Program-made: the position numbers and the translations under genes
Notes under the pieces: generated by a model
Seen by the model: only the letters and a program-made list of their open reading frames with translations
What the model was told of the DNA's origin: nothing
The model's database searches: none
Shown here: positions 15,715 to 53,005 of the stretch, one piece after another
Layout of the letters: each line of letters opens with the position of its first letter
Position numbering within the stretch: the first letter of the stretch is position 1
Assembly: GCA_037974965.1 (NCBI GenBank)
Contig: JBBPFI010000001.1
Span: 1,612,001 to 1,676,000, forward strand
Length of the DNA stretch: 64,000 nucleotides
Reading direction: 5' to 3'
DNA from: Dacryopinax spathularia
Lineage: Eukaryota > Basidiomycota > Dacrymycetes > Dacrymycetales > Dacrymycetaceae

Positions 15715-18160
15715 ATGGCATTCGTCTTCAACTGGCCGCGTTTCTCGGACCAGTTCCACGCCTCCGCACGGGAGATGCTCGAGTCTGCGCTCAACAAGGG
15801 CTCCAAGCCGCCCATCATAGCCGATAAGATCGAGGTTGTCGAGCTGGAGATGGGCACCCAGCCGCCCGAGCTGGAGATACGCGATATTGGCGAGCTGACG
15901 ATGGATCAGTTCAGGGGCATCTTTCGGCTGAGCTATTCGGGTGATGCGTATATCGTGTTAAGGACCAAGGTCCAGGTGCGTGCACTCCCTTGCTTACCCC
16001 GTATCTGTTTTGTACTGACTGCTCGAATAGGCCAATCCGCTCATACATAAGAAACGCGAGATGCACCTCCTGGACGGAGGACCAGGGATGGTCGCCGCCC
16101 AAGCACCCCTAGTCGTACCAATGCATCTCCGCCTCTCCAACTTCAAGCTCAACTCCTACGTCGTCCTCGTCGTCTCCAAGCAAAAAGGCATCACCCTCGT
16201 CTTCAAGACCGACCCGCTCCAGAACGTCGACGTGAACAGCACGTTCGACCGAATCGGCGTCTTGCAGAAGTATATCCAGAAGGAGATCGAGGGCCAGCTA
16301 CGGGAGATGTTCAGGGAAGACCTGCCCAGCATCATACACAAGCTCTCGCAGCGCTGGTTCTCGCGGGAATTGAGCGCGAAGGCGAGGGTCGAAGTGCCCT
16401 ACGCGAAGAAGTTCGCCCGTCCGCCAACGGAGGAAGATACGGAGTTCGAGAGCGTATCACAACAGGGGGAAAGGACGTACGTCGCCCCTGTTCACCAGCC
16501 GGCTCCTCCATCGGCGTTCGCACCCCACCGTCCAACGTTGGAACAACGCTACTCCCAATCCACCGCGCGGAGCACAGCGTCCCGTGGATACTCGCAAGCA
16601 TCTTCATCCCGCTCTCCAAGATCGGTTCGCTCCGGCTCGTCAACACCCGCACCGGTCTCGTCCACATCATCCACTTTCCCCGATATAGAGAACTACGACC
16701 CCACGTACGGCCTGCGACCCGAAGAGCTTCCAGCAAAAGGCGACTACTCCGGCTTCGCTAGGCTCTGGCAAGGGAGCGGCGGGCTCGCAGAGCTGGCCGA
16801 AGAGCCCGAAGCGCTCGAGAGCTCCTTCCCAGGCTCTGCATCAACAGCTGACGAGGCTGAATGGGCGCAGTCCGATGCTGGTGCGCCGGGGTGGCAGGAC
16901 TTTGACCTTCCGGCGAGCGAGTACTGGGATGAGAGTATTGATGACCAGGCTCCAGCGGTGGACTACGAGACTGTGTACGCCGTCGGAGGCGGTACCGTTA
17001 CTCGACCTCGTGTGCTGCACTCTCAAAGCCTAGTAGGTACGCCGAGCGATACCGCAACTGTTCGATCTACACAAGGGACCGTACGCGCTCCGTTAAGCAG
17101 GACGATGTCTGTTCGGGGAGCCGCTTCGCCCGCTCTGCCAAGGCTCAAATTCTCGCGCGCTAATAGCTTGCCGCTGGGGTTGCGCATACATACCCCTCCG
17201 AGCGCTGTTAGTACGCCGGTGGCTATGGCTGTCGGTTCACGACCTAGTCCGCTTGGGTTCGGGTCTGCAAGCTACTTCCAAGGCTGGGAACAAGAGGACC
17301 CGGCGACGACGCGCTCTCCGCCCCCTTCTTCAAGACCGCATTCGACCCGGTCGTCGTCGTTTGCCGAATCTGCTTATTCGCTCCCACATAAGACATATAC
17401 CCCGTCACTATTGGGCGCCACACAACCTATGAGCCGCACGCAATCCATGCCCGCATCCCGCCGCGTCAGCCCTCCATCCACAACTCCCCGTTCTCCCCCC
17501 GCGCCCATACACCGCCCTCCCCTCTCCGCCCTCCCCGCCAACCCAGCCCGCCCATCCCGCTCCTCCAGCGGCCTCACATATTCCGGCTCCACTCCCCCTT
17601 CCTCCGAAGTGCCCCCTACAGAGGAAGACGAGCCCCTCTCCCCCTCATCCGCCAAATCCTTCCCCTACGCCGCCCACGCCTCCAGAGCGCGAAGCGGGAG
17701 CATATCCCAGCGACTTTCTCATTCCCATCTTTCGCCGTTTGAGCAGCTGTATGCCTCGTCACCGCCCAGATCGGAGTACGGCAGCGAGCGCGGGATCGTC
17801 CTTAAGCCCGCTGTGAATGCCCGCGTGAGCCAGCTCGCAATGCTGACGAACGAGCATCAGACCCTCTCCCCTTACACTCGGTCAATGCAGCACTACGCCG
17901 TCCGGAGCGCCGTGCCCAAAGCCAATACACCAGGTCTGGACGGCAACGCGCCGGTCGAGCGAGCACCAATTAAGGCGAGGAGGAAAAGGACGTATCATAT
18001 TGGAAAGAAAGCGCCTGTTACCCCGCCGGAGCCGGCGCCTTCGTCGCCGAGGCCGGCATCGGATTATTCGGAGTATTTCCATGTTTCGCCGCAGATGGAA
18101 GAGGCTCCGATATTAGAAAGCGAGGGACTGCATCATCGAGCGCCTTACGTGGCTGCATGA
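15715..18160 (+). CDS. MDM34: Mdm34, ERMES complex subunit with SMP domain
   Basis: Subunit of the ER-mitochondria encounter structure, a lipid-transfer tether in the mitochondrial outer membrane. Two exons (15715-15975 and 16031-18160) give 796 aa. The first ~200 residues form the SMP domain: MAFVFNWPRFSDQFHASARE, then IADKIEVVELEMGTQPPELE, GDAYIVLRTK, MHLRLSNFKLNSYVVLVVSK and a DVNSTFDRI stretch. These are near-diagnostic for Mdm34. The rest is a long Ser/Pro-rich low-complexity tail with a basic KARRKRTYHIGKK element near residue 740. The protein is well over the ~460 aa of the yeast form because of that tail. The ATG at 15715 gives the conserved MAFVFNWP start. Confidence 0.94.
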
Positions 18161-18463: not shown

Positions 18464-21400
18464 CTAGACTGGATAGAATGGCATGCCGCCATTTTGGACG
18501 TTTGTTGCGGGTATGATCGGGACTTGGGCGCTTGGTATGGCGGGTAGTCCTGCGGCTGGTAAGGGTATGACTCCGGCTGTAGCTGGTGCCTCAGCGGCGT
18601 GCTCGAAATCGTCCACATGCCGGCTGGGCGGCCGACTCGTATTCAATCGTGCTTGTGGCAGAGTACGCAGTTCTCGGAAGTCGTTGTTTGAGTATGTCTT
18701 GGCGAGCGATGCGACAGGCGGCGATTTCTGTGCTGAAGGCGGTGCGGTACGAAGTCCGCCGTCCAAGCCACTCAACGGTCTTGACAGGGGTGTCGAAGGT
18801 GGCCGAGCCGTCTCTAGTTGGACGAGAGTCCGTAACGCGGCTCCGGTGAGAGGTGATGTAGTCGCCGGGCCGGGTAGAGGTGTCGAGATAAGCGGCAAGG
18901 ACAACCGACCGAGCAGCGCGGTAAGAGTTTCGGCTTTCTCCTGACCGAGTAGCACTTCGACAAGACCCTTGAATCTCGCTGCGGTGCCTTCAGAAAGTGT
19001 TGGTACAGGAATTCCGGTGACGACGCCTTCGGTGATCGGGAAGAAGCTGAGTGCCGTTTCGAGAAGCGAGATCGCCGCTTCCAGGGTCACTTCGCCCCGC
19101 TGCCATTCCATGGTGATCTTCTCCTCGATCTCGGGTAGGAAGGCGATCGCGGCGCCTATGGCTCGTAGCAATTGGTCGGGCTTATGGACGACCTCGGCGT
19201 CCAGGTTGGTTAACGGAAGATGCAGCTTGGGCAGGATATCCATGATGGAATCGCTGTTGGTCGCCCTGCAGGTGTCTGCTATGGTGATTGCGACTGATAC
19301 CGGTATGAGACTGGTCTCGACATCCCGTCGCGACAGCACCATGTCTGCGATCTCGATGGAAGCTGCCAGTGGTCGGTCCCAAATTGACCAAAGAGCGTTT
19401 GCCATTGCAAGGGCCACCGGATGACCAAATGCAATATACATATCCAGTTGTGCTTGTCCCATACCTTGGACAAATCGAAGTGATCGCTCAGATCTAAAGT
19501 CGCCATAGGCAAGGAACACTTCTTGTGCTGCCTTGCCTACTGACTGGCTGACATTGAAACCATCCTGGTCGAGGGTAGCCAGTCGTTCGAGGGCGAGCCA
19601 ATCGACCATGCCGAATGTTCCATCATCGATATCTCGAACTAGGTTGACAATCAGGTTGCTCCTCTCGGCATCCAGGGCGGTCAACAAAGCATGAACGGAA
19701 GGGAGCTGATCGAGAAGAAGTTTTGCCCAGGCGTCGTTCTGGGGAGTCGAGCCACGGTCTCCATCCAGAAGTGCGATCAGTAGGTCTGCGCTAGCAGTTA
19801 GCCTGCTGCTCGGATCGACGCCTTCTTCCCAGCGAAGACTTTCTTGCAATAACACTGGGAGAATGATGTCCGCTCCGCTATTGATGAAATTGCCGTCATC
19901 ATCCATTTCCGACAGCTTCGAGATCAATCGTTCGCAATCGACTCGAACCGATGGCTCGGATGAGTATCTTGTCGCATAGGTCGGTTGTCGCAGGGAAATA
20001 AGAAGCGATACGAGTGCTTGAATCGTAGGAGGAATCATTCCTGGTATGATGCCGAACTCGGGCACCATGTGCTGCAAGACTTGAACGCTCGCTTGTGCAG
20101 TGGTGACTAGTTCCCGAGCAGGACCTGAATCGGAGAGTTCCCAGTTCTGATAAGCGAGTCGTCGGCTCGCTTCCAGAAGGATGAGGGTAACGCATTGCAC
20201 GGCAGACGTATTTTGTCGCCAGAAGGAATGTGTGATGGGACGTTTGTCGGTACTTGCGTGCATTGCAGTCAGCAGGAGATGCAGTGATATTTGCAGCTGT
20301 TGTAGGTTCCCAGACGGCCACGACTTGGACGCAGTGGTCAGATAGGCAGCCCCAGCGTTCAGATCACCGCTGGCCGTGCTGACACTTTCATGCCCGTTCG
20401 AGTGCTCGGCGCCATTACGGTGCCCGGGTGCCGAACCTTGGGCATTCTGTATCTTCTCTAGAAGAGCCGATCCTTGATCGGATGTTGATAGGACCTGTCT
20501 AACGTTCTGATGTGTGATTGCTTCCTTCAGGATCTGTGTAGACGGGTAAGCCTGAGTGCGTCTGAGAACCCGCTTTTCCTTACCTCAATGACGCCTTCTT
20601 CACTCAGCCACAGATGCAAAATAGCCGCTGCTTTCCGACCAGCGGTATCTTCTCCTTCTGACTGTCCAGATATCAAGGACAACAAGCCGACAATAGTAAT
20701 TTTGAGCTTGATGCTGTGAGACCAAGAACTGAAGTCTTCGTTTGCGCCGAGTGCATCGAGGACGGCGGGCAAAAAGCCAGCTTCCCAGATATTGCCCTCT
20801 ACCCACGACATGTCCATATGCCCTTCACGGAGGTTGTCCCACATATGTATGTTCTGCTGTATGCGCTGTTGTAAGGCCGAATCCAGATCGGTCGGTAAGC
20901 CAACACGGCTTAAATAGTTGGCTATTGTAGCATAGGACGAAGCGTTGGCGAGTGCGAGGTAGATAGATCGGTCGACAGCGGAACCCAGCACGATCGGTAG
21001 GATGTTGTCTATTACAGCTGGTGCCTGATGGCTAAGAGCCGATATAAGCTGGGTCAGCAGCTCTGGAGATGGCTAGGCCAGACTTGTTGAGCGTTTGACC
21101 ATGCGGAATCGGCAATCGCGTTGACTTACAGACTGTCCCATTATCTCTACGAGTCGCTCTTCGATGTCCTGCAGAGCCGGCTCCGTGAGTTCAGAAGGAT
21201 CCACCGTCCCTTCCAGAGCATCAATCAACTCTTTCAGCCAGTCTTCCCCGATTTCATAGCTGTTTAGAACTTGCTCGAGCGTGATGTCATTGGACGAAGC
21301 TGAAGACGTGGAAAGCTGCCGTGCCATGAGGTCGAGAATATCAATGCCGCTGGATGTCGAACTGAGCAATCGCTGGGGTAATGCCAGCGGATCGGTGATG

Positions 21401-22308: not shown

Positions 22309-25300
22309 ATGAGCGACTTCCAGCGGCATTTGCGATCTCTGATTGGGCAACCTGCTGCGCCAGAAGATGTGCGAGATGACGTAGAAAGCATCTTGCGCGA
22401 GCTTGAGGAATGGGAAAGGTCCGCCTATGTTCCTGAACATTTTGGTTTAGTAACTTACACTCGATGCAGAATAGTAGGAAGCCCACGTATGCTGCATCCT
22501 GAGATTTGGATGATGTTCGGCTGAATGTCCCTGCAGCTACGGTCAACGATGACGAACCCGACTTTGACGAAGACCCAGCACCATCCGTTCTCGATCTTTG
22601 GAATGCCGTCAGTGAAGATGCGGGCACTGCTGAGACACTCCACGCCGCAGACGACCCCGTTTTCAAGCTGAGGAGGTTAGTGGTTCATATCCGTTGGATG
22701 AATCTGGCTAAGCTGGTGCAGCAAGCCGAACTTGGTGCCTCTTCTACCAGTCCTGGCAGAAGCCCTGTTATCGCCAAAGTCCGATGATCAAGTGTCAGTT
22801 GAGGTTGCTGAGCTGCTGGGATTCGACGAGATGGAGCTTGTTACGCAGATTATGGCTCATCGGGCGGAAGTCGGACAACGCGTACGCAGGTGTATGCGCT
22901 AGTGGTGGTCTGTGCATTGACTCCGCATGTAGCTCACCGACTCGGCTGAATTGGGTGGAGCTGGTCATGACCTGCACGACTCCCACGATAGGCAGGCTTT
23001 GCGGAAGGGGAAGAAACATAGAATGAATGGTACGACCGAGGCCATAGGTGGGTCGTGTGAGGCGCCCCTTCTGCTTCTGGACTGAATTTTACCGCAGTAG
23101 GAGGACCCTTGCCATTCACCGAAGACTCCTCTCGAAAAGCCCGAGAAGCCGCCCTGCGAGATGCTGCCGGCCGTCCTGTGATCCCGAGCTTGCGTGCCGA
23201 AGACACAAACCCGCAATACCCGCATGTCTACTCATCAGGAGTGGGTGGTGCCCTGCTGTCCTCAAGCGGGCAGCGGTTTATGCTACCCCTCGGCACGACT
23301 CGCGAAGATACGGAAGAGGCAGAAGAAGTAATCATCCCGCCTGCAAAGCCGGTTCCGCCACGAATCGGAGAACGTCTCATTTCTGTTTCAGAGCTCGACA
23401 ATCTCGCCAGAGGCTCATTTCCTGGCTACAAATCGCTCAATCGTATCCAGTCTGTTGTATACCCTACCGCTTACGGCACTAATGAAAACATGCTTGTGTG
23501 TGGTATGTCCGTTGTTCTTTGAATGTTCATTCCCGGGCTGAAACCAGGGTTTTAGCACCGACTGGAGCTGTGAGTATGGCGACAGCCATCACAACATGTG
23601 CTGATGGTCGTTTGCCAGGGTAAAACCGATGTTGCGGTTCTGACAATATTGAGGGTCATATCACAATACCTTAACGGGGATGTTCAAACTCTGAGGCCCG
23701 CATTGATGGCTTCATCGATAAAGCGGGATGACTTCAAGATCATCTATGTGTAAATCCATGCTCTCCGGGTATGAACTCATATTCTGATGCCGTTTGTAGT
23801 GCGCCGATGAAAGCACTTGCTGCGGAAATCGTACGAAAGATCGGAAAGCGGCTGGCTTGGCTGAATGTAAAGGTCCGCGAGTTGACGGGTACGTCAGAGC
23901 GTTGGAAACGTGGCGAGTCCCGCTGAGAGATGCTGCCAGGTGACATGCAAATGACCCGAGCGGAGATCGCCGAGACTCAGATGATCGTAACCACACCCGA
24001 AAAGTGGGACGTCGTAACGCGTAAACCGACTGGAGAAGGGGAGCTGGCTTCGGTAGGATTTTCTTCTTCGCAGTCATTGACATTGTCTCATCAGCTGTAG
24101 AAAGTCCGCCTTCTGATTATCGACGAAGTTCACCTGCTTAACGAAGATCGCGGAGCGGTTATCGAGACCATCGTAGCCCGAACACTCCGCCAGGTTGAGT
24201 CAACTCAGTCACTAATTCGCATTGTTGGCCTCAGTGCGACATTGCCCAATTATGTGGATGTAGCCGATTTTCTGCGCGTCTCCCGCTATACAGGTCTTTT
24301 CTACTTCGACTCTTCGTTCCGCCCCGTACCGCTCGAGCAGCACTTCCTCGGAGTGAAAGGCAAGCCGAACAGTGCCCAATCAAAGAAGAACCTGGATGCT
24401 GTCGTGTTCAAGAAGGTGTCTGAACTGGTCAAAGAGGGTCATCAAGTAATGGTGTTTGTGCATGCGAGGAAGGAGACGGTTAAGAGCGCCGAAGCCATCC
24501 GAGAAGCTGCCCTGCTCGAAGGCAACCTGGACGACTTTGATACTTCAGATCATCCTCAGTACGATTCCTTTCGACGGGAAATCGGTACTTCTCGAAACAA
24601 GGAGATGAAGCAGCTCTTCGATCGTGGATTTGGTATTCATCACGCAGGCATGCTCCGAACGGACCGCAATATGATGGAGAAGATGTTTGAGGCTCGCGCC
24701 ATAAAGGTCAGGGAGTTTTCCACCTATGATTCTAATGAGAATCTACTAAATGAAGAGCAGGTGCTATGCTGTACGGCTACCCTGGCTTGGGGTGTCAACC
24801 TTCCTGCACATGCAGTCATCATCAAAGGAACACAAGTGTACGACAGCGGTAAAGGTTCATTCGTGGATTTGTCAGTCCTGGATGTGCTTCAGGTATGTGT
24901 ACTCGAAGTACGCACGGACCTCGTTCTAACAAGCATTCAGATCTTCGGTCGTGCTGGTCGTCCGGGCATGGAATCAAGCGGTGTGGGATATATCGCTACG
25001 ACACACGATAAGCTCGACCACTACTTGGATGCTATTACAGCTCAGGTATGTACCACCTCAAACTCACGAAGGCGTGTCTAATGGGAAATCCAGCATCCGA
25101 TCGAGTCCAAATTCATCGTCGGCATGATAGACTCCCTGAACGCCGAAATCTCTCTTGGGACCGTGTCCAATGTGACGGAGGCAGTACAGTGGGTGGGATA
25201 CACATATCTTTTCGTCCGGATGCGAAGAAACCCATTCGTTTATGGTGCGCCGCACAATGGCCAGCTTTCGAATCTTGTCTAACGCGGTCTAGGGATGTCG

Positions 25301-32607: not shown

Positions 32608-33846
32608 CTAGTCGCTAATGCGAAAGACGACCTTGCCCACTACGCCCTCATGCGCAAGCTCGAAGGCGTCTGCGGCCTGGTCGAGCGTGAACACTATGCC
32701 AAGTAAGAAGACTCTTCAGCTTGCTCTAGCATGAGAGAGCGCATATACATACCTTTAGCAATAAGCGGCTTCAGCCTCCCCTCCCCAGCCTCACGCGCCA
32801 CAGTCTCCAATTCCTCCCTCACATAAACCGTATTATGTGCCACCCACCTCACGCCCTCCCTCACCTTAGGTCTAAGCCACCATCCCGCAAAATCTAGGAT
32901 CCAGCGCCCATAGAACGGAAGCTGGACGCCCCAGTTGGCTTGAGCGAAAGCTGAGCCGGGTGAGGTGGTTATTTCGATTAGGGTCGTCTTGGCCGGGGAA
33001 GGGCGGAGGAGGGGCAGGGATTGGCCAGGGGAGCCGATCGTCGAGTAGACTAGGTCTAGTGAGCCGTGGGGGATGACCTTTGTTGGGTCTTGCGTTTTAT
33101 AGTCGATTACTGCACATACGTACGTTTAGTTCGGTAGTTGGGAAGGGACAGGAAGGGTAAGAGGAAATACCTTCGCAGTATGGGTAGAGGGACTTGCTCT
33201 GCTCTACTTTGCCGGTTGAGACGGAGGTGTAGATCTTCTCAAACTTGAAATGGTGGTGCAAGAGCTGGATGACCAGGTGGGCTACACCTCCTACTATACC
33301 CAGCATAGGAAATCAGTTTTCATCCAGCGGTTGAAGAAAAATGGACGGACATCCCCCAGTAACAAACGCCGCCTTCCTCTCCCCCTCATGCTTCAAAATC
33401 GGCTGGATAGCCGTCATCCCATTCGCAGGCAAACACGCCGCCTCCTCCCATCCCACACTCTCCGGTTTCCTCGCACACTGCCCAGCCGGAACGACCACAT
33501 ACTCCTGATACGTGCCCTTCTTCCCCAGCTGTACCGCTCCCAGCACCTCATCACCTTCCTTCCAGCCCTCCTGTGCTGCTTGCTGGCCGACGGCGGAGAC
33601 GACGCCGGCGAAGTCGAGCCCTAGGGTAGTGGGGATCGGGAATGTTGACCCGAAGATACGCAGGTAGCCGAGGAGGAAGCCGTATTCTGAGGGAGCTATG
33701 GAGGCGGTCTTTATGCGGATGAGGAGGTCTGAGGACTGGGGGTTGAGCGTGGGGAGAGGGACGGTCTGGAGGGTTATGGAGCGCGAGGGAGGGCCATAGG
33801 AAGTCTGGATCAGAGCGCGCATCGTTTCTGGCAAAGGGGCCATCAT
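32608..33846 (-). CDS. medium-chain zinc-less dehydrogenase/enoyl reductase (TOXD/quinone-oxidoreductase type)
   Basis: MDR-superfamily NAD(P)H oxidoreductase of the fungal TOXD-like trans-enoyl reductase/quinone reductase group. It starts at ATG 33846 (MMAPLPETMRALIQTSYGPP). The GroES-like domain follows: LRIFGSTFPIPTTLGLDFAG, GDEVLGAVQLGKKGTYQEYV. The Rossmann segment VTGG/LGGVAHLVIQLL is split by an intron near 33300-33355. The nucleotide-domain end is DLVYSTIG, and the C terminus is GIVFTLDQAADAFELAHEGV with KVVFRISD at the stop (32608). Four exons are inferred. No Cys quartet or catalytic zinc ligands are visible, so it is not a classical alcohol dehydrogenase. The substrate is unknown, and no polyketide synthase lies nearby. 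Confidence 0.8.
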
Positions 33847-34191
33847 GGGCAGCTGGTTGTTGACTTCTGCGCGTCCCAAGACACGGGATTAAGTAGTCAC
33901 CGGCATATAATATGTTCACATTGTCGCCTTGGACAACAAAGGACGTTGTTCGAGAAAGAGCAGCTGACGCGTCGATCAAAGAGCGGCATGAACGCGTCAT
34001 ATTCGCCAACTTCGGCACCTCACCATCCCTGACAATATACCAAGCCAACATTGAACAGGCATTCATTAGATTTTCAACCTTTCAACCCTCTATTTCTGCA
34101 TTTCCGTCTCCAGCACAGAAACCATCGCGAACCGTACTTACTGGCGGCAAGAGCCGCGAAAGGCCGCTGACGCGTCCGCTCCCCTCCTCGC
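33847..34191. other. intergenic region between two MDR dehydrogenase genes
   Basis: 345 bases; 3' flank of the upstream dehydrogenase and promoter of the downstream one (both minus strand). A minus-strand TATTATATGC near 33906 is a possible TATA element about 60 bases before ATG 33846. Confidence 0.4.
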
Positions 34192-35614
34192 TTACTCCGG
34201 TCCATCAATCAACGTCTTTATGACCCATTTCCCTGCCTTGTCCTTCCCATTCTTCGTAGCCTCGAACGCTTCCACCGCCCTATCAAAGCTGAATCTGTGG
34301 GTGACGAGCGGGGAGAGGTCGATCTTGTGTTGCGCGGCTAGGGCAATGGCTAGGGGGTAGTCGCCGTACTGCGCACGCGTTAGCCGATGCATGAAGCACT
34401 TTCCGGAAAGAGAGGATGGGAAGCGGCGGGAAAGCGAGGGAGAGAGGGAAGGGGTCGGGACTTACGCCGTACCGGAAGGAGCCTTTGATGGTTAGTTCTT
34501 TAGCGATGACGTTGAGGATCGGGATAGTCGCATAGTCCGAGCCCATCCCAATCTGCGTAAACACGCCTTCACACCCACTCGTCAGCTCACCCTCACCAGG
34601 AAAAAGAGAAGGAGAGGCAGACGCACCACCCCGCCTAGCAACAAACACCCCCGTCTGGATACACACCTCCGCACCAGTAGCCTCCAAGACCACATCCGCG
34701 CCTCCCTCCCCCGTCCCCAATACCACTCCCTCCCCCCATCCCATCAGCTCACATACGCCTCTCGCGCACCTCCTCGAATACTCCACCTTCCCCTCGCCCT
34801 CCAGCATCTTCGGCGGGAGGTAGACATGCGTCGCCGCGTAGGACTTTGCGAACTCGAGCCTCGTTGGGTTTATGTCGATCGCTAGGATGCGCGAGGCGCC
34901 AAGGGCGCGGGAGACGGCCATGCATAGCAGGCCGACTGGACCGGCACCGAAGACGGCTACAGTTTGGTTTGCGCTGACGTGGGAGAGGGTGGAGGCTGCG
35001 TGAACCGCCACGCTCAGAGGCTCCATCTGCGCCCGACATCCACATCCGAATCAGCAACGTTTTGTTGTTCAAGCGAAAGAGCAGGACGCACCATCGCCCC
35101 GTCCTCTAGCGACATACTGTCCGGCAGAGGATAGACCATATCCTCCGGCAACTTATACCACCTCGCGAGCGTCCCATCCACAGGAGGAGTAGCAGCGAAC
35201 CTCATCCCCTCACACAGCTCATACGTTCCCCCTTTACACATCCCACACCGTCTGCACATGATCCCCGGCTCCATACACACTTTCTGCCCCGGCTTGAGGG
35301 AACGGACGGCTGAGCCGACGGAGTGGATCAGCCCGGAGGATTCATGTCCCAGGACCATGGGCGAGCGGACGTAGAAGTCGCCTATGTGCCCATGGGTGAG
35401 GAAATGGACGTCCGAGCCGCAGATACCGGTTTTCTTGACTTGTATGAGGACTTCGTCTGGCCCGACTGGAGGGGAGGGTCAGTCAAGGAATCTGGAAGGC
35501 GGGCTGGGGGAGAGATGGGGACGTACGGGTGGGGATAGGACGATCTTCGAACGCTACGTCGTTGATGCCTCGGAGGACGAATGACTTGTTCGTGCCTGCT
35601 GGTTGGTCACCCAT
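34192..35614 (-). CDS. zinc-dependent polyol dehydrogenase (xylitol/L-arabinitol dehydrogenase type)
   Basis: NAD-dependent sorbitol-dehydrogenase-family enzyme, likely xylitol dehydrogenase (xylitol to D-xylulose) or L-arabinitol 4-dehydrogenase in pentose catabolism. ATG 35614 gives MGDQPAGTNKSFVLRGINDV. After an intron near 35470-35527 come the catalytic-zinc Cys (TGICGSDVHF) and GHESSG, which holds the His-Glu ligand pair. The structural-zinc quartet is CRRCGMCKGGTYELC. The cofactor site is GAGPVGLLCM with an acidic residue in IDINPTR, which favours NAD. Later signatures are ELTIKGSFRYG and an FEATKNGKDKAGKWVIKTLI end at TAA 34192. Introns also lie near 35030-35090, 34565-34645 and 34395-34470. 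The upstream ATG at 35698 would add 28 residues before the conserved start. Confidence 0.87.
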
Positions 35615-43584: not shown

Positions 43585-44170
43585 GCCTGAAGGTCCACCG
43601 CTCCGCCGCAACGGAGTTGGCTTGGATGGTCGCCTCTCCGCTTGGATCTCGGGACCTCGGGATCTTGGGATATGAATACATGGTTTGGTTATCCTTATTT
43701 CTATCATCTATCGTCTATCGTCTGGATCTGGTGTGGTGGATGATCTCTGTCGTTTTGGAGTCTGGCTATCCTGTTACTTGAAATTCTGCGACTGTTTCGT
43801 TTCTCGTTCGACTAGTGCAAGGGCGGGCGGACAAGGCTGGACCTCGCCTTCGGGCAAGTCGACACGCACGCACGCTGCGTCACCTTGCAAGCGCTCTACA
43901 TCGGTCTGATGGTGCTGGTCCATCCATAACATCCACGGTAGAGAATCGTCCGACTTTCTCCGTTCCTAACTCAACGCATTCAAGATGTCAAACGGCTCCT
44001 CAACGTCCGCAAACTCTACTCTCGACATGAAGCTCTAGCGATTCTCGTCTCCCGCACCCGTGCACGCACACGCAGGGAGGGAGAAGGCTGCACTCGGACT
44101 GAGCATGTGGTCATGCATCGTCTTGTCTAATGTACTTCGGCTACGACTACAGTACAGTACGGGTCATACA
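43585..44170. other. convergent 3' intergenic region before the methyltransferase array
   Basis: 586 bases between the F-box gene and the first minus-strand methyltransferase. No recognised gene, RNA or repeat. Confidence 0.4.
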
Positions 44171-45206
44171 TCAAAGCGGCTTCGTGGCCGTCCAGATGAT
44201 ATACGGTAGAGAATGGGAGGTTTTCCTCCATTCCGCCGCCATGTCGTCCAAGAAGGCGTCGAACCCTTCCTCCGTATCGGCCATACCGAGACCTGCAGCA
44301 ACGGACTCAACAACCCTTTTCTTCGAGGGGAAAGGAACCATACCTCCGAGTTTGACAGCAGCCCCTTTCATAGCCCGCCAAGCTTCGATCGACGAGCGCA
44401 GCGCATCTGTCCCCTTCCCATCAACAGCAAGCGGGACATCAACGACCTCCGCCCTCACATCCACAAACCCAGCAGCCTCGAGCAAACCCGCAATCTTGGG
44501 AAACATATCCGGATCGATCTTCCGAAATGCGCAAAGCGCCTTCAACGCATCCCGAGCCCGCGTGGTGAGAGGCGGCAGGTCGACGTCAGCACGCATGCTC
44601 CAGAGAATATCGAGCTCTCGAAGCTGTATCATCCCACCCGGCCTCAGGACGCGGAAATATCCCTCGATGCAGGTCTTCCAAGCGTCTGCGCTGAATGCTA
44701 GCGCCATCAAGCTCTGGTGGACGAACGCAAACTTGCGGGTCCATTCCGTGGGTAGGGAGAGGCTGGACTGGATAGCGAAAGTCTGGTTATGAAGTGGAGG
44801 GGGAAAGAGGCGGGATTCGATGTCGATCCCTACTAAAGAAATGGAGGGCGAGACGATCGCAGCGACATCGTTCAGCCAGATGCCTGTTTTGCGTCACGTC
44901 TAGGGCTGGAAGCAGATGAGCGAGATGGGCTTACCCGTTCCGGTACCGGCATCGAGGATCGAGTCCCGGTCAAGCAAGGTTAATCCTTTCGGCAGGAGCT
45001 CTGCAGCGTTCGACCGAAGGGCACGATACTGCAACTCGAGCCTACGCTGCGAGTCAGATTCCGATAGGAACTGTTGGTATTGGTACGAAGACGGGCCTGG
45101 ATTTCTCTTCTTCGTCTGATGGCAGGAGATACGTTTCTGCCGCGTAGTATCTCGCGGGTTGGGCATTATCGTTTGGGGGTGCTTTGGGTGTGGATACTTC
45201 GGTCAT
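44171..45206 (-). CDS. SAM-dependent methyltransferase 1 of the array (UMTA/LaeA-like)
   Basis: Class I SAM-dependent methyltransferase, the most 3' member of a six-gene array. It starts MTEVSTPKAPPNDNAQPARY and shares the family N-terminal signature YYAAETYLLPSDEEEK. Motif I is LDAGTGTG, joined by an intron (near 44885-44933) to IWLNDV. Motif II holds the acidic pair in LVGIDIESRLFPPP. Then come VHQSLMALAFSADAWK, YFRVLRPGGMIQLRELD (post-I/motif III) and a C-terminal FDAFLDDMAAEWRK ... TATKPL. An intron is also inferred at ~45064-45105. It differs from its neighbours in VHQSLM instead of VHQRLM, and the final-exon intron of the others is not needed here. Substrate is unknown; small-molecule or protein targets are both possible. 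Confidence 0.85.
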
Positions 45207-45254
45207 GTTGGATGGCCCGTAGGGAAGTAGGCTATATCTGTTGGGACCTAGGAA

Positions 45255-45264
45255 CCTTTTATAG
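45255..45264 (-). promoter_or_regulatory. TATA box of methyltransferase 1
   Basis: Minus-strand CTATAAAAGG about 55 bases before ATG 45206; a further ATAAGG-type site lies near 45340. This supports ATG 45206 over the in-frame ATG at 45293, which lies upstream of the TATA box. Confidence 0.5.
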
Positions 45265-45487
45265 CTCGTCATTGCTGCACGAATCCCTCCCATCTACACG
45301 TACGCATACTGTCACATACACGAGCGTATTCGCCGGACCTTATAAAAGGCCGACGCTAAGTAGAGTCGAAAGCGAATAAGCGACCGTCACGCCCGCATTG
45401 GACCGCACGATCACATTCTCGACCCTACGCGGCACACTCCTCGGTTCCGCAATTTACCTCTTTGCTCGCTCGCCCAACTCGGATTTC

Positions 45488-46495
45488 TCATTCCGGCTTT
45501 TGGGCGGTCCAGGTCACTACAGCGTACTCGTCGAACGAACCGCGTTGCTCCTCAGACATACGGTCCATAAAGGCGTCGAATTCTTCTGAGGTTGCGCCCA
45601 TGCCAAGACCTGCAAACGAAACAATCAGCTATCATGTTTTGGGTGAGCGGGACATTACGAACCACCAAGCCGCAGGTAGAGCGCCTTCATAGCTTTCCAG
45701 GCGCCTATGGTCGTCTCCCCGCCAGCCTGCAAAATATTGCTATGCGTGACCTGGACGTTCCGAAACCCGGCCTCTTCCAATAACTTCGTGAGTTTTGGTA
45801 GAGTATCACATCGGATACCCCTGCTCTCAGCCAGAGTACGCAAGGCCGAGATGTACTGGCGATTGAGTGGCAGCGGGTCTTTGTACCCATCGAAGGCCCG
45901 ATAGCAGTCGAATTCTTCTAGTCGAACCCATCCGCCGGGTTTGAGGACGCGAAAGAAACTGGAGATGCAGCTCTTCCAAGCCTCCAGGCTGAAGGCACAG
46001 ATCATCAGTCGCTGATGCACGAGTACGAAGGTGGAATTCCATTCCGTGGGCAAGTCCAGCGACGACTGCACAAGGAACTTGGTGTTGGGCGGTGGCTCCG
46101 ACGGGAAGAGCTGTGATTCTATGTCGATGCCAATAACCGTGACGGATGCGGGACAAAGCCTTGCTACGGTAGTCGCCCAGATGCCTGCGGGTGCCCATGA
46201 GCACCGCAACAACATGGTGTTGCCGCAAGACTTCTACTTACCAGTGCCTGTGCCTGCATCCAGTAAAGCGTCTCCCGGCTTGAGAGCCAGCTGACTCGGT
46301 AACATCATCGGAGTGTGCGCGACAACGACATAATGCTGGCGCTCCAACCTGGCGGTGGATGTCAAAACCGAGCACCGTATGAGTACACTGCGGAACGTAC
46401 CGATCTCTTTCCACGTCATCGGAGGGCAGGAGATACGACTCCGAAGTATAGTATCGGTTGGCCGCCACCGAATCGTTCTGGTCGGTGGATGACAT
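45488..46495 (-). CDS. SAM-dependent methyltransferase 2 of the array (UMTA/LaeA-like)
   Basis: Same family layout: MSSTDQNDSVAANRYYTSES then YLLPSDDVERDR, an intron (to ~46349), LERQHYVVV, LDAGTGTG at motif I, VIGIDIESQLFP at motif II, LVHQRLMICAFSLEAW, FFRVLKPGGWVRLEEFD, and after a last intron (~45601-45654) GLGMGATSEEFDAFMDRMSE and VVTWTAQKPE at the stop 45488. ATG 46495 is chosen because a TATA box lies about 48 bases upstream, matching the other copies. The in-frame ATG at 46534 sits only a few bases after that TATA box. It belongs to the methyltransferase array at 44171-53005. Confidence 0.85.
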
Positions 46496-46540
46496 GGTGA
46501 CAGGCTCAGGCGGGGTGGAATCTACCAAGGCCATGTCACC

Positions 46541-46548
46541 CTTATATC
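46541..46548 (-). promoter_or_regulatory. TATA box of methyltransferase 2
   Basis: Minus-strand GGGATATAAGGG about 48 bases before ATG 46495, the same spacing as in the other array members. Confidence 0.5.
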
Positions 46549-47375
46549 CCGTCCGGCCCAAAGGCGCTTATCTCGTGGATGTCCAGCCAACGTTTTACGC
46601 ATAATCCAAAGTCACGCCGGGTGCATCCAGAATCCAGCGAGCAACGTAAACATCATCGTGGTTCTTTTCCGCTTGATGTGACAGCACTGAGGTGCTGAGC
46701 CCGACACCTTTCCAGTGTCCTAATATGCGTTCAAAGCCTGACCGGGTTGTAGAAGTGTAGGGAAGACCACACCGGCAAGGCAGTCCACCTTCGGCAAACT
46801 CGAGTGGCTAAGTGATTCTTTCGGCTGACTTGTTGGATTAGACGCCGTTATATTTGCCGAGCAGACCGTAGAAGGAGATCCTCGTAACTAGGCGTTCACC
46901 GCATCGAGCATGGCACGTCCGTGACTTGGCCTCCAGCGGACTTCATGAGACCGTTCCAATCTATCATGACCACCGTTCAGCTTCTCATTTGCCCCCATGC
47001 CTAGAAATCAGACAGGTTTCTCCTTCCAGTCAAGCATAGGACAGCAAGCCGGTAATACCGGCAGAAATGAGCATTTCGTCGTATGGAACCGAGGGGACGG
47101 TGCATCATAAGAAGAAGACCGCCCAATTTCCGGAGCAACGTATCAAGGGTTGGGCTTCAAGACCTTCGATGTTACCCAGAAGCGGTAGCATCCCATCGAC
47201 AATAATAGACAAGGCTTTCCCGTGCAGAAGGCAAAAGAAGTGAGGAAGGCAGGAGAGTGCCACGTCAATGGTGCTAGCTTTCCTCGGGAGCCGCGGAGCG
47301 ATCACGTGCCTTCTCGTCCTCAAGCTGTCGCGCGGAAGCGTGCGCAATAGGTCATAACAAGAGCTAGCTTATGGT
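46549..47375. other. intergenic region between methyltransferases 2 and 3
   Basis: The longest gap in the array (about 830 bases). I looked for remnants of a seventh copy (YLLPSD, LDAGTG, HQRLM, PGG motifs) on the minus strand and saw none. Confidence 0.45.
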
Positions 47376-48353
47376 TTACAATGGTTTCCTGGCTGTCCAG
47401 CTGCACCAGGTCCTCCCGCAATTGGTTGAGCGCCACTCCTCCTCTATTCCGTCCATGAACTTGTCGTAATCTTCATCAGTTGACACGCCATTCAAGACTG
47501 TAGCCGCGTCAGTAAGCTAACGGTTACGTCGCAAGACCGGTTCGTACCTCCTGAATCCACATATGGGCGTTTCATGCCGCGCCATGCCCCGATCCAAGCA
47601 TTTCGAACAGCGACCTCCTCTCCAAGGCGCGTGATCTTACGGACTTCTTCGACGAGCTCGAAGCCGGCCTCTTCGAGGAACTCGGCGATGTGTAGCAAGG
47701 TATCTGGACCAACCCCACGCCTCTTGCAAATGATCTTCGTCGCCTCGTGGAATTTGTGAGTCAGAGGCGGAACCTTGCTCCCATTGCGGAAGACACCTGC
47801 GAAGTCGACTTCTTCAAGCTTGAGATAGCCACCAGGCTTCAGTACACGGAAGAATCCGGCAATCGCTTGCTTCCATCCATCTTCGCTGAAGGCAGCTACC
47901 ATCAAGCGCTGGTGGACAAGGGAAAAACTTCCATCCAATTCATGCGGAAGATCAAAAGTCGAACCAACGAAGAAGTTCATGTTCGGCGCGGGCTTCGGAA
48001 AGAGACGGCCTTGAATGTCGACTCCTACAAGAGAAACACCTGCCGGGAGATCGTTGGCAAGGTCCAGCAGCCAAATGCCTGCATGACAATGTTGAGATCG
48101 TGGTACACGCGCAAGCGCGAAGGTCCTTACCAGATCCGGTCCCCGCGTCTAGGACAGCATCGCCCTCCTTGAGAACGACTCCAACCGGTATCAGACCGCC
48201 ACTCAATGGCTTGACGGCAAAATGCTGCGCGTCCAGGCGAGCCTTTTCAGCCTCGTCAGATGGGAGAAGATAAGATTCGCTCGCATAGAAGCGATCGCTC
48301 TTGTCCTCAGGAATCTCGACAGAGACAGGTGCAAGGGTGAGAGCGGTAGCCAT
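47376..48353 (-). CDS. SAM-dependent methyltransferase 3 of the array (UMTA/LaeA-like)
   Basis: Three exons (48131-48353, 47548-48078, 47376-47497) give 291 aa. It starts MATALTLAPVSVEIPEDKSD and continues RFYASESYLLPSDEAEKARL; here there is no intron after this block, unlike several neighbours. Motif I is VLDAGTGSG/IWLLDLA across the first intron, followed by LVGVDIQGRLFPKPAPN, LVHQRLMVAAFSEDGWK and FFRVLKPGGYLKLEEVDF. The last exon gives STDEDYDKFMDGIEEEW and WTARKPL. This is the cleanest model of the array and a good reference for intron positions: one intron within motif I and one before the C-terminal helix. Confidence 0.88.
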
Positions 48354-48400
48354 TGTGGATTTGGAGTGAGTTGTGATGATCGTTGAGCTAGTTCTTACTC

Positions 48401-48408
48401 CTTATATA
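48401..48408 (-). promoter_or_regulatory. TATA box of methyltransferase 3
   Basis: Minus-strand TATATAAG about 50 bases before ATG 48353. Confidence 0.55.
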
Positions 48409-48840
48409 CTGTAAGTTCATCTGCCTGCCCTCCTGGTCCATTGGCAATCCCCTGGTAGGGCGGCCGAAGAACATGCATGTTGAACCTGTCAGGCAACGTC
48501 GGCTCCGGTGCGCTCTGGATGATTCCGAGCCGATAAGTTGCGGCCGTCCGGGATGAACAAGCGCCGGTGACCAACCGCAAAAGAAGCGCTCGATGTGCCT
48601 GTCGGAAGAAGGGTACTTACATATACCGCAGGGCGGGTGGCACAGGAGACAACGCCTCACGACAGGGCTCCTTCTCGGCGCTTCACAAGGCGGCCACTGC
48701 AGTCCCTCCGTCAATTTCCTAGAGCACGATGAGTTACTTGCTAAGGCAAACATAACGGCAGGGGCGGAAAATGGTCTATCCGGCGGCATCTATGAAAGGG
48801 ACTGCAATTAGTCTACAGCGGAAAACGGTTTCACAATTCG
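48409..48840. other. intergenic region between methyltransferases 3 and 4
   Basis: 432 bases with the 3' end of copy 4 and the upstream sequence of copy 3; no other gene seen. Confidence 0.4.
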
Positions 48841-49889
48841 TCACATCGGTTTCCTCGCAATCCAGGTAATATACGTCCTAGAAAAGCTGTACTTCTGCCA
48901 TTCCGCCTCTACTAGATCCATGAAATGGTCATATTCTTCGCTCGTTCTTGCTACTTCGAAGCCTGACAACCGTCAGACATCAACGCATATGAGGTGGGAC
49001 ACCACTCACCACCCGCTTGCAAGAATGGCATTTTCATTCCCCTCCACGCGCCGATTCCGGCCTTGCGCGCATTCTCGTCACTGCCGTAAGGTACGCGAGT
49101 CTGATAGGTGTGCAGGATCTTGAATCCGGCTTGCCGGAGCAGGCCAGGTATCCTAAGCAAACTGTCCGAGCTGACACCTCGAGCTTCGCTGAGTACTCGT
49201 GCACCCTTCCAGAACTTGTCCGTCAGGGGCGGAACTGCACGGTCCTCCAAAACGCCGAGAAAGTCGATCTCTTCCAGCTGAAGGTAGCCGCCCGGCTTCA
49301 GGACCTGGTAGAACTCTGAAATGGCGGATTCCCATGCGTCGCGGCTGAAAGCTGCTACCATCAGTCGTTGATGTACTAGACGAAATTTCGAAGACCATTC
49401 CAGCGGCAAGTCGAGAGAGGACTGGACCCAGAACTGCATGTTGGGCTGAGGCGGCGGAAATAGCCGTTTCTCCAAGTCGATACCGACTAGATTCACCCGT
49501 GATTGGACGAGCTTAGCGAGGTCAAGAAGCCAGATTCCTAGAGTATACTCAGACCGAGTGCTTCAGGACTGCGCATGCCTTGCATACCCGATCCGGTCCC
49601 CGCGTCGAGAACCTCATCGCCGTCAGTCAGTGTCAACCCATCAGCGACATATGATCGGCTGTGTTTCTTCAGCACGTCATGCTGTATATGAAGCCTGGAT
49701 CCGTCCATCAATCTCTGCACCAGCCGTTTGAACGTATCGTACGTACCGCGTTCGTTCCTGCTCATCATGAGGCAAAAGGTATGTACCGGCAATGTAGTAT
49801 CTCTCCGCTCGAGTGATCCCTTCTGCAAGCGGGGCGTGGACTGCTTGCGGAGGCGCTGGTGGCAAGACTGTAAGTTCAGTGTGGGGCAT
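48841..49889 (-). CDS. SAM-dependent methyltransferase 4 of the array (UMTA/LaeA-like)
   Basis: Starts MPHTELTVLPPAPPQAVHAP, with an extended N terminus before RYYIAGTYLLPHDEQERTR (His replaces the usual Ser of YLLPSD). Motif I is VLDAGTGSG, then IWLLDLAKLV, LVGIDLEKRLFPPPQPN, LVHQRLMVAAFSRDAWE, EFYQVLKPGGYLQLEEIDFL. The last exon starts after an intron at ~48967-49015 and gives TSEEYDHFMDLVEAEWQKYS and ITWIARKPM. An intron after QERTR joins LVQRLMDGSRLHIQHDVLKK. It is most similar by eye to copy 3 around motif III and the following helix. Substrate unknown. Confidence 0.85.
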
Positions 49890-49942
49890 ACTGCTTGTAC
49901 CTCTACTAGCACTGGAGTAAATCCGGGGAAGGAGTCCCCATG

Positions 49943-49951
49943 GTATTATAG
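49943..49951 (-). promoter_or_regulatory. TATA-like box of methyltransferase 4
   Basis: Minus-strand CTATAATACC about 55-60 bases before ATG 49889; a weaker match than in the other copies. Confidence 0.4.
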
Positions 49952-50547
49952 GGACGCAAATGTACTCGGCTTCATGCTGCTCAGCTGAGTGTTGGCTCTG
50001 AGTAGGTCCCGATTGAGCAAGCCGCTAGAAGACACCCAAGGCACGTCTTGTAGCGCGGCACCGCGTATCCAATTTGACACCCGAAGGTCCATGCTAGACG
50101 CCCGAACAGTGTCAGGCAGGAAGAGACAAGTATCCAACGTGCGGTCAGAGACGGGCTCATAGCGCGGGCCGGACAGTCAGAACAGCAACGACTCCAAGGA
50201 GGTCCGCAGATACATCAAGAGCATGAAAATTTGATGAGCTGGCCCGAAGGAGATAAGCCTCGCTTGAATAGCTCCAAACTTTAGACGGAATACGTTCACG
50301 CCGTTGGACTGGGGCTAGCGTAACAGATGAAAGCTACTGTAGCGAACGCGGACAGGAAAGAAAAAACCCCGGTGCCCGGATTTGAATTCAGTCGGCCACG
50401 TGTTCTCCACGAAGGCCGAATAGGTTCCGAAGGTTCTTCTGCTTTGGAGGCTCCGGCCAGGACCTAACCACCATGTTACGTGCTGGTGTTCTAGCGCTAT
50501 CAGGTATTACCCGCTCGACAATGATGTTACTGTGGATGCCTCTGGTT
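49952..50547. other. intergenic region between methyltransferases 4 and 5
   Basis: About 600 bases without a recognisable gene. A T-run (minus strand) after GGGCACCGGGG near 50370 looks like a Pol III terminator but no tRNA fold fits in front of it. Confidence 0.4.
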
Positions 50548-51568
50548 CTACTGATGCATTGGCTTCCTGGCTGTCCAGCCGACCCACAGCCATGCGAACT
50601 CATTCGTTGCCCATTCCTCCTCCATCTCGTCCATGAAAGCGTCGAACTCGGCAGCTGTCTTAACAAGGCCAAATCCTGTATGAACAATCAGTGCATTTTC
50701 TGTGGTATGCTTGTCGGACACTGACCTCCCGCCTTGAGGAAGGGGAACTTGACGGCCCGCTGCGACCCCAGGGCGGCGTATCTTGCTTCTTTCCCTGCGT
50801 CACCATTTTGATACATATTTTCTTTTCGAACTTGGATGTCTTCGAATCCTGCGTCTCTCAAAATGTCTTCAAGGTTCGAGATCGTCTGCGGTGCGATATT
50901 TCTGGACTCGAACAAGCTGTGCATCGCCTTCATCCATTTGGTCGTCAAGGGTGGCGTTGGTACATTCTCAGGCATAACTCGCAGCACGTCGACCTCCAGC
51001 AGCTGAAGACCTCCGCCAGGCTTGAGGCAACGATAAAACGAAGCGATATTGGAGCGCCATGCCTCCTCGGTGAATGCACACACCATCAACCGTTGATGAG
51101 CGAAGGAGAAACTGGATGTCCATTCTTGCGGCAGGTCGAGGCTTGACTGAATCAAGAACTTCGTGTTCGGCAGCGGTTCCGGGAAGAGACGCCCCTCAAT
51201 GTCGATGGCCACTACCGTAACTCCGGAAGGAACCGAATTCGCCGTATCAATAGCCCAGGTGCCTGTGCTGGTTGAGCGCTTTCCTGCTTTGACTGCACTG
51301 AACTCACCAGAGCCAGTTCCGGCGTCAAGGATTTTATCTCCACTCGAAAGATGCAGGTCGGACGGGATGAACTCCCACCCAAGACGCTGTTTGGCCATGT
51401 CATGCTGCCGCTGCAATCTGAGAGCAGCGTAAGTGACGCCGTCATGAGACGGTAGTGAGATGATCATTCTTACCTCTCCTTCTCCAAATCATCCGATGGA
51501 AGTAGGTATGTGTCGGCAGTGTAATACCTCTCCGTTGTCGTGGACGTGGTAGTCGTCATACTGGACAT
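50548..51568 (-). CDS. SAM-dependent methyltransferase 5 of the array (UMTA/LaeA-like)
   Basis: Starts MSSMTTTTSTTTERYYTADT and YLLPSDDLEKER, then an intron to ~51421 and LQRQHDMAKQRLGWEFIP. Motif I ILDAGTGSG is followed by an intron and TWAIDTANSVPSGVTVVAID, with IEGRLFPEPLPN as motif II. AHQRLMVCAFTEEAWRSN and FYRCLKPGGGLQLLEVDVLR follow, and after the last intron GLVKTAAEFDAFMDEMEEEW and VGWTARKPMHQ. By eye it pairs with copy 6 (shared VDVLRV/VDLLRV, ALGSQRAVK/AIGSQRGVK, FLKAGG), suggesting a recent duplication within the array. Confidence 0.86.
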
Positions 51569-51616
51569 AGCGGGAGTGCTTGTTATGTAGAACGTTCGAG
51601 CTGCCCAAGCTAACAC

Positions 51617-51626
51617 TTCTTATACG
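51617..51626 (-). promoter_or_regulatory. TATA box of methyltransferase 5
   Basis: Minus-strand CGTATAAGAAG about 50 bases before ATG 51568. Confidence 0.45.
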
Positions 51627-51972
51627 TTTGGGGAAACAATCCCGAACGTATGGCCAGAATCCTGCCCATTCAGTAGATGACTACAGCACTCTCAGCATGC
51701 CACCGCACGTTTGAGATGCATAGGGCTGTTGAATCACTGACATGCTGATAATTCTGCCACGCACTACCAGTATAACAACATAAACGGGATGGGCTAGCAT
51801 CCGGAGAATGCAACATCCCGATATGAGATGCACAGCCTCCTCCGCGAAGTTCTGCGGCTTCCGAGCGAGTCGCGCCTCTTCGATGAACACCATGAACTGT
51901 CGCGTTCTCAATTCGCCGCACCATGCCTCTTCTTGACACTAAGCCGACCAAGCCCGAGTATCCAGCTGATAC
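51627..51972. other. intergenic region between methyltransferases 5 and 6
   Basis: 346 bases. A minus-strand frame with QFMVFIEEARLARK shows faint likeness to the C-terminal helix of the family, too weak to call a remnant. Confidence 0.35.
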
Positions 51973-53005
51973 CTACACTGGCTTCGTCGCCGTCCAGCGG
52001 GTCCACATCCACGCGAAGTCTGTCGTAGCCCACTCGTTCTCCATCTTGTCCATGAATACGTCGAACTCCTCGCTTGTCTGCGCGATTCCAAAGCCTGGTC
52101 ATTGCTTTATCAGAGACACGCCATGGGACCGGTACCGGCAAGACTTACCGCCGGCCTTCAGGAACGGACCTTTCACCCCTCGCTGCGAACCTATGGCTGT
52201 ATCCCTCGTTGCCTTGCCGTTGTCACCTCCCGTGTACCTCGGGCTGACAACAGTCTTGATATCGGCAAATCCTGCTTCCTCAAGCAAGCGAGGAATGTGC
52301 GCAATGGTCTGCGGTTTGACACCCCGTATGGAGCATAGCATGCTGAGCGCTTCGACCCATCTTGCAGTATATGGCGGGGTGACTACTTCGGGATACATGA
52401 CCCGAAGGAGGTCGACCTCTGCCAGCTGTAGCCGCCCACCAGGGCGAAGGATACGATAGAATCCTCTGATGGCGCTCTTCCATGCATCCTCCGTGAAGGC
52501 GAGGATCATGAGCCTCTGGAAGATGAACGCGAACTTGCCTGTCCATTCTTCCGGAAGATCCAGACTTGACCGCACGAGGAACTCCGTGTTGACACCTGGC
52601 GAAGGAAGCAGCTTCCCTTCGATGTCGATGCCGACTACTTGTACATTGGGCGGGACGGTTTGGGCCACGTCAGTCGCCCAAGAACCTGATAGTGGTGTTA
52701 GTTCACGACCATCAGCACCAAGGTCTGTTGCTGACCCGCTCCTGTCCCGGCATCCAGTATCCTATCGCCTTCTTTCAGCTCCAAATCATCGGGGATGAGT
52801 TCTGCGCCGAAGTACTTCTTGTAGATCTGGTGCTGCGAGTCCAACCTAATCCACGTACGTGTCAAGCTGCAGGCTACTAGGAAGAGAAGAATAATCACCT
52901 CGCTTTCTCCACCTCGTCCGAAGGAAGAAGGTATGTTTCGGCGGTATAGTACCTCCCGTCTTTAGAAGGGAAGGCGGTTGTAATCGATGCAACTGTCGAC
53001 ATCAT
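51973..53005 (-). CDS. SAM-dependent methyltransferase 6 of the array (UMTA/LaeA-like)
   Basis: The most 5' member of the array. It starts MMSTVASITTAFPSKDGRYY, followed by TAETYLLPSDEVEKAR, then an intron and LDSQHQIYKKYFGAELIPDD, ILDAGTGAG, an intron, SWATDVAQTVPPNVQVVGID, IEGKLLPSPGVN, FQRLMILAFTEDAWKSAI, FYRILRPGGRLQLAEVDLLR. After the last intron (~52100-52152) come QTSEEFDVFMDKMENEWA and WTRWTATKPV. Motif changes against other copies are IFQRLM for VHQRLM and KLLPSP for RLFPxP in motif II. Either of two adjacent ATGs (53005 or 53002) can serve as the start. Substrate unknown. Confidence 0.85.

Follow-up and report, generated by a model that had tools for sequence, protein, structure and literature searches.

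How does a fungus come to carry six adjacent copies of one methyltransferase gene, and what could such a set do where no biosynthetic partner stands beside it? The question is raised by a window of 64,000 nucleotides from Dacryopinax spathularia, the whole stretch of DNA analysed here. We put the probability at about one half that a common class I SAM methyltransferase gene was duplicated in place long ago, leaving six intact copies and the end of a seventh, and that the products are small-molecule enzymes acting on several related substrates.

Gene models and surroundings

The minus strand between 44171 and 53005 carries six complete spliced methyltransferase genes, A to F, arranged head to tail and encoding proteins of 281-299 amino acids with pairwise identities of 42-57% (Table 1). 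The first ATG of gene A is at 53005 and the stop of gene F at 44171, and the extent given for the array by an earlier, sequence-only reading of this DNA is thus exact to the base, with six intact models, head to tail, on the strand it proposed. The splicing of all six genes is predicted from sequence, with introns of 45-57 bases. An intron in motif I and another before the last exon, both in phase 1, are present in all six genes, and a first intron, located after an E-x-x-R segment, is found in every gene except D. The earlier reading had rightly seen the motif-I intron in all copies, but it restricted the last-exon intron to five of the six, a count that belongs to the first intron instead. 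A spliced profile alignment reproduced the introns of gene F. The donor of this gene's first intron (45047-45092, minus strand) is weak: GTCTTC in phase 0 was used in the model, but a GC-AG reading in phase 2 is also possible, and the boundary of exon 1 is therefore uncertain. A weak donor, GTTCGT, is likewise seen in the last intron of gene E (45610-45662, minus strand).

Table 1. Positions in the window of the six array genes and of the relic copy.
Feature	Position (strand)	Exons	Length	Basis or remark
Methyltransferase A	51973..53005 (-)	53005-52899, 52845-52736, 52685-52149, 52094-51973	291 aa	spliced model, alignment, Pfam
Methyltransferase B	50548..51568 (-)	51568-51474, 51417-51308, 51262-50726, 50675-50548	289 aa	Methyltransf_23 5.7e-11
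Methyltransferase C	48841..49889 (-)	49889-49747, 49694-49588, 49537-49010, 48962-48841	299 aa	Methyltransf_25 1.6e-10
Methyltransferase D	47376..48353 (-)	48353-48131, 48078-47548, 47497-47376	291 aa	spliced model, Pfam
Methyltransferase E	45488..46495 (-)	46495-46401, 46348-46242, 46184-45663, 45609-45488	281 aa	spliced model, Pfam
Methyltransferase F	44171..45206 (-)	45206-45093 (boundary uncertain), 45046-44935, 44883-44344, 44292-44171	295 aa	spliced model, Pfam
Relic of a seventh copy's last exon	43916..44010 (-)			in-frame stop and one-residue gap; best match F

Six full-length paralogues within 8.8 kb are more than chance would give, since the rest of the 29.2 Mb yielded just five other close relatives. 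The array is bordered by a fungal potassium channel (KCH) gene upstream of A and by an F-box gene and a Uds1 gene downstream of F; a Na/H exchanger, a histidine biosynthesis gene and a PIF1 helicase follow to the right of the window. These assignments come from a Pfam scan of 30 chosen long open reading frames in the window and 10 in the adjoining 20 kb rightward, a selection that short exons could escape. Exons of zinc-type alcohol dehydrogenase occupy 33316-35478 (minus strand), where ADH_N is matched twice and two adjacent genes may be present, and two open frames of 699 and 599 amino acids, at 16061-18160 (plus strand) and 18464-20263 (minus strand), have no Pfam match at E 0.001.

No ketoacyl-synthase, terpene synthase, P450 or AMP-binding match is among those listed near 1.656-1.665 Mb of the contig that holds the array, and the nearest P450 listed on that contig is about 0.96 Mb away. 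Candidates scored over the whole genome numbered 5 of 5 for ketoacyl synthase, 92 of 179 for P450, 3 of 3 for terpene synthase and 14 of 47 for AMP-binding; the family-level search consisted of these four families. Among the matches listed, the claimed absence of biosynthetic partners holds for the four families, within which the array has no linked core gene such as defines a secondary-metabolite cluster. The array might nevertheless tailor a secondary metabolite whose core gene is located elsewhere in the genome: unlinked tailoring occurs in fungi, and ketoacyl-synthase, terpene synthase and AMP-binding matches are present on other contigs. We regard this as unlikely, because six tailoring copies are, in our judgement, many for one pathway, and because a linked core gene was not found in the stretches scanned.

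A TATA-like box can be seen in the sequence before each of the six genes. When the six upstream regions were compared, none of their 7- or 8-mers recurred in at least four, and the number of 6-mers in common was about that expected by chance. The 6-mer CTTATA, which is part of the TATA-like box and occurs in five of the six regions, carries no statistical weight, being one of three such 6-mers against 2.3 expected.

Family membership and relatives

All six proteins possess R(Y/F)Y, YLLP(S/H)D, LDAGTG(S/T/A)G, L(K/R)PGG and a C-terminal W-x-A-x-KP end, and 64 columns of their alignment are invariant, including YLLP.D, LDAGTG.G, L.PGG and W.A.KP. Other segments are more variable: VHQRLM in C, D and E is AHQRLM in B, IFQRLM in A (Phe for His) and VHQSLM in F (Ser for Arg), and motif II reads IDIEGKLLP in A, IDLEKRLFP in C and IDIESQLFP in E. 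Of the signatures first described for the array, YLLP(S/H)D, the LDAGTG motif I, PGG and the W-x-A-x-KP end stand in all copies, while motif II is looser than proposed and HQRLM is confined to four of the six (B-E). Methyltransf_23, Methyltransf_25 and Methyltransf_31 of Pfam each match all six proteins, which with their glycine-rich motif I are predicted class I SAM-dependent methyltransferases; a match to Methyltransf_23 or _25 also makes A-F LaeA-like in the broad (Llm/Mtr23) sense, and in this broad sense their earlier description as LaeA-like paralogues is borne out.

The LlmA-J proteins of Aspergillus nidulans, Mtr23/Mtr25 of Penicillium oxalicum and PoLaeA1-3 of Pleurotus resemble the array proteins in the Methyltransf_23/25 domain, in the SAM motif and in the presence of several paralogues per genome; in contrast to A-F, no six-gene tandem array is mentioned for them in the available parts of the sources, a comparison by description only (PMC9502681, PMC10671955, PMC3547832). 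The likeness to "UMTA methyltransferase family protein" (e.g. An15g06160), an annotation name for fungal methyltransferases, is one of label only, judging by the available part of PMC6320622. With the Coq5/UbiE model PF01209, five of the six proteins reach E 0.01, and A (29.1 bits) and B (25.9) pass the gathering score of 20.1, C standing at 20.1, albeit with modest values, but the curated NCBIfam UbiE cut-off of 216 bits is far above the 23.7 bits of A, the protein for which this score is given. Coq5/UbiE is a housekeeping enzyme, with which a six-copy array does not, in our judgement, agree.

Sequence searches of solved structures returned three matches for B alone and 21 for a six-protein profile, the best being 3mgg at 5e-9; no LaeA-named entry is among the matches to B, to the profile or to the related gene on contig C8, whose own 24 matches are headed by plant phosphoethanolamine methyltransferases. 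The predicted structure has a mean pLDDT of 64.6, with residues 1-52 unreliable, and Foldseek gave no match for it at E 0.001, the first row being yeast Coq5 (E 1.7e-3). In the structural list obtained with the same predicted model, where the best fifty VIA rows span at most 2 Z units, small-molecule O-, S- and N-methyltransferases appear frequently, and TmtA, GtmA, OxaG and RoqN, which we take to be fungal enzymes, are placed near the top. These four show 11-15% identity and are tied with many other methyltransferases, and their substrates belong to their own pathways.

Relatives were sought with the B, C and C7 proteins in the genome of 29.2 Mb (24 contigs). The nearest are a single gene of contig C7, with 32-40% identity to the array, and a set of four on C12, at 24-38%, two of which are adjacent and 64% identical; remoter LaeA-like genes comprise a pair on C16 (55%, partial models), one gene each on C8 and C2, and three on C6. 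The tandem pairs on C12 and C16 indicate that tandem copies are not limited to the array. The four C12 genes form a loose second group on one strand (920-950 kb; L022-L024, L035-L037), in which a P450 adjoins one methyltransferase while a Zn2Cys6 regulator and a purine permease separate others, and the lone C7 relative (946-954 kb; L021, L040) adjoins exons of an AA14 lytic polysaccharide monooxygenase. The genome further contains two velvet loci, which mark it as fungal, four matches to DUF6534, presumably a basidiomycete family and thus a hint of a basidiomycete, and at least 116 exon-level P450 matches; the latter, together with the AA14 exons, suggest, we presume, a wood- or litter-decay fungus.

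Beyond this genome, a prokaryotic scan confirmed one locus of 82 pattern matches, L028 (NYXK01000209.1), a LaeA-like gene of fungal type whose contig was deposited under a Deltaproteobacteria MAG. Since its model is interrupted by an intron, the contig is probably misbinned fungal DNA. From 54 pattern matches in a viral scan three loci emerged; L029 and L030 share the same match, and L029 and L031 yielded no gene model of at least 45 bits. In the open-licence literature we found no report of such a six-gene array.

It is conceivable that the array copies are LaeA-like regulators, which would act on proteins or chromatin partners and alter metabolic genes elsewhere, as do LlmF and Mtr23 in ascomycetes. 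The Pfam domain is shared with LaeA-like proteins, and the two velvet loci would accord with such a role. As far as the available parts of the sources go, LlmF works via the localisation of VeA (PMC3547832), deletion of some Mtr23/25 genes alters cellulase expression (PMC10671955), and three LaeA-like genes of Pleurotus affect growth, polysaccharide and cellulase (PMC9502681); PMC13006574, likewise available in part, is a further source on LaeA/Llm-type regulation. On the other hand, the LaeA-like genes on C16 and C8 stand apart from the array in the tree (99.5/100), and L028 matches these genes best (59.8, 48.2 and 47.4 bits, compared with 35.4 for the best array member). This contrast is weakened by the position of L028 itself, which is unsupported (1.5/45), and by identities of A-F to the partial C16 and L028 models of 28-43%. 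The upper value is reached between D and one of the partial C16 models, so LaeA-like genes are not uniformly distant from the array. Six neighbouring regulators are, in our judgement, less expected than six enzymes, and a regulatory role appears doubtful to us.

Phylogeny, a relic copy and selection

In a maximum-likelihood tree of 19 proteins, the six of the array are split from the 13 others with a support of 99.8/100 and constitute a single clade if the root lies outside them. The pairs within the array are map neighbours: A-B (96.9/98), C-D (84.1/80) and E-F (79.4/71). A codon tree has an identical topology, and exactly these three pairs are found in 1 of the 105 unrooted six-leaf topologies. 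A single clade whose neighbour pairs follow the map order points to local tandem duplication, and a scattering of the copies into separate groups, which the sequence-only reading had named in advance as the outcome that would count against it, is not seen within this genome.

Immediately downstream of F is what is left of a seventh copy, a relic of its last exon. Its protein score of 68 exceeds the highest score of 500 block shuffles (52) and, by a narrower margin, that of 398 control stretches (60); its DNA score against the last exon of F is 42, whereas 2000 shuffles reached no more than 35 and 1362 control stretches no more than 34. No further convincing relics were found between the array genes. 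Another protein-level match, at 24841-25246 (score 60), lies within a helicase gene and is taken as chance.

Synonymous change between the copies is saturated, with NG86 dS not computable in 10 of the 15 pairs and 2.1-4.0 in the other five. The copies are therefore old. A GY codon model gave a global omega of 0.059-0.133 (0.133 and then 0.059 in the log, 0.125 at the checkpoint), and among six fixed values tried 0.05 was best, whereas 1.0 was worse by about 238 log units: the array copies are under purifying selection. Slow change, by mean site rate, characterises motif I (0.81), motif II (0.62), the segment after it (0.63), the surroundings of beta5 (0.76) and the N-terminal YLLP.D segment (0.78); the linker leading to motif I (1.30) and three stretches that follow beta5 (1.22-1.35) change fast, and the N-terminal tail fastest (1.41). 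The claim of variation among copies is supported in that certain segments beyond the SAM core evolve faster. This pattern would fit a kept cofactor site combined with a varying substrate site, but also a plain relaxation of surface parts. Substrate diversification among the six copies is plausible.

The array looks like an old local expansion of a widespread fungal methyltransferase family, in an ordinary arrangement. The proposal of an undescribed system is not supported: tandem pairs exist elsewhere in the genome (C12, 64%; C16, 55%, partial models), and an old family under purifying selection explains the data.

Possible function of the six proteins

If the array proteins are small-molecule methyltransferases, as we favour, each gene would have its own promoter and would probably be transcribed singly, as the TATA-like boxes suggest. 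Each protein would bind SAM in its conserved core and then methylate a small molecule, the choice of which may be set by the parts that change faster, namely the linker ahead of motif I and the segments that follow beta5. Jointly, the six enzymes might cover several related substrates, such as phenolics or other aromatics that the fungus meets in plant material or that are products of genes at other loci. The purpose would be detoxification or tailoring, for which an adjacent biosynthetic partner would be unnecessary.

Such a role has possible parallels in other fungi, drawn from the available parts of the respective papers and by name or role of the enzymes only. In Phlebia radiata, two "S-adenosyl-L-methionine-dependent methyltransferase" transcripts rank within the top fifty for increase on spruce, with log2 values of 7.19 and 6.55 on day 14, and the protein is present in the wood proteome (PMC5011852). 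One of the few proteins detected repeatedly in Bjerkandera growing on wood is a SAM-dependent methyltransferase (PMC5752865). Spruce phenolics are detoxified in Beauveria by a glycosyltransferase acting jointly with an O-methyltransferase, the latter completing the process (PMC12773783). The location of related genes beside P450 and AA14 exons also counts for the enzyme reading. Against it stand the study of same-domain LaeA-like proteins mainly as regulators, as far as the available parts of PMC3547832 and PMC10671955 show, the slow YLLP.D segment and the fastest change in the N-terminal tail, so that rapid change extends beyond the likely substrate segments, the loss of the VHQR His in A, and the poor structure model with no Foldseek match at the threshold used.

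A more specific version, in which the array is a stand-alone methylation set for six different aromatic substrates, a counterpart to wood-decay P450 arrays with no biosynthetic partner, seems quite unlikely to us. Least probable is that the copies are largely redundant, through dosage or drift, with substrates that are not distinct: local duplicates often overlap functionally and positive selection could not be shown, but fully redundant copies are rarely all retained for as long as 42-57% identity, saturated dS and low omega imply, and only one relic is seen.

Fungal genomes contain several LaeA-like methyltransferases whose substrates await assignment. Six linked, old and intact copies, with the SAM motif conserved and faster change in other segments, offer a small group for deciding between small-molecule enzymes and regulators in this family, and all six could be removed by one deletion. 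If they are enzymes acting on aromatic compounds, as the favoured reading would allow, they may be useful catalysts too.
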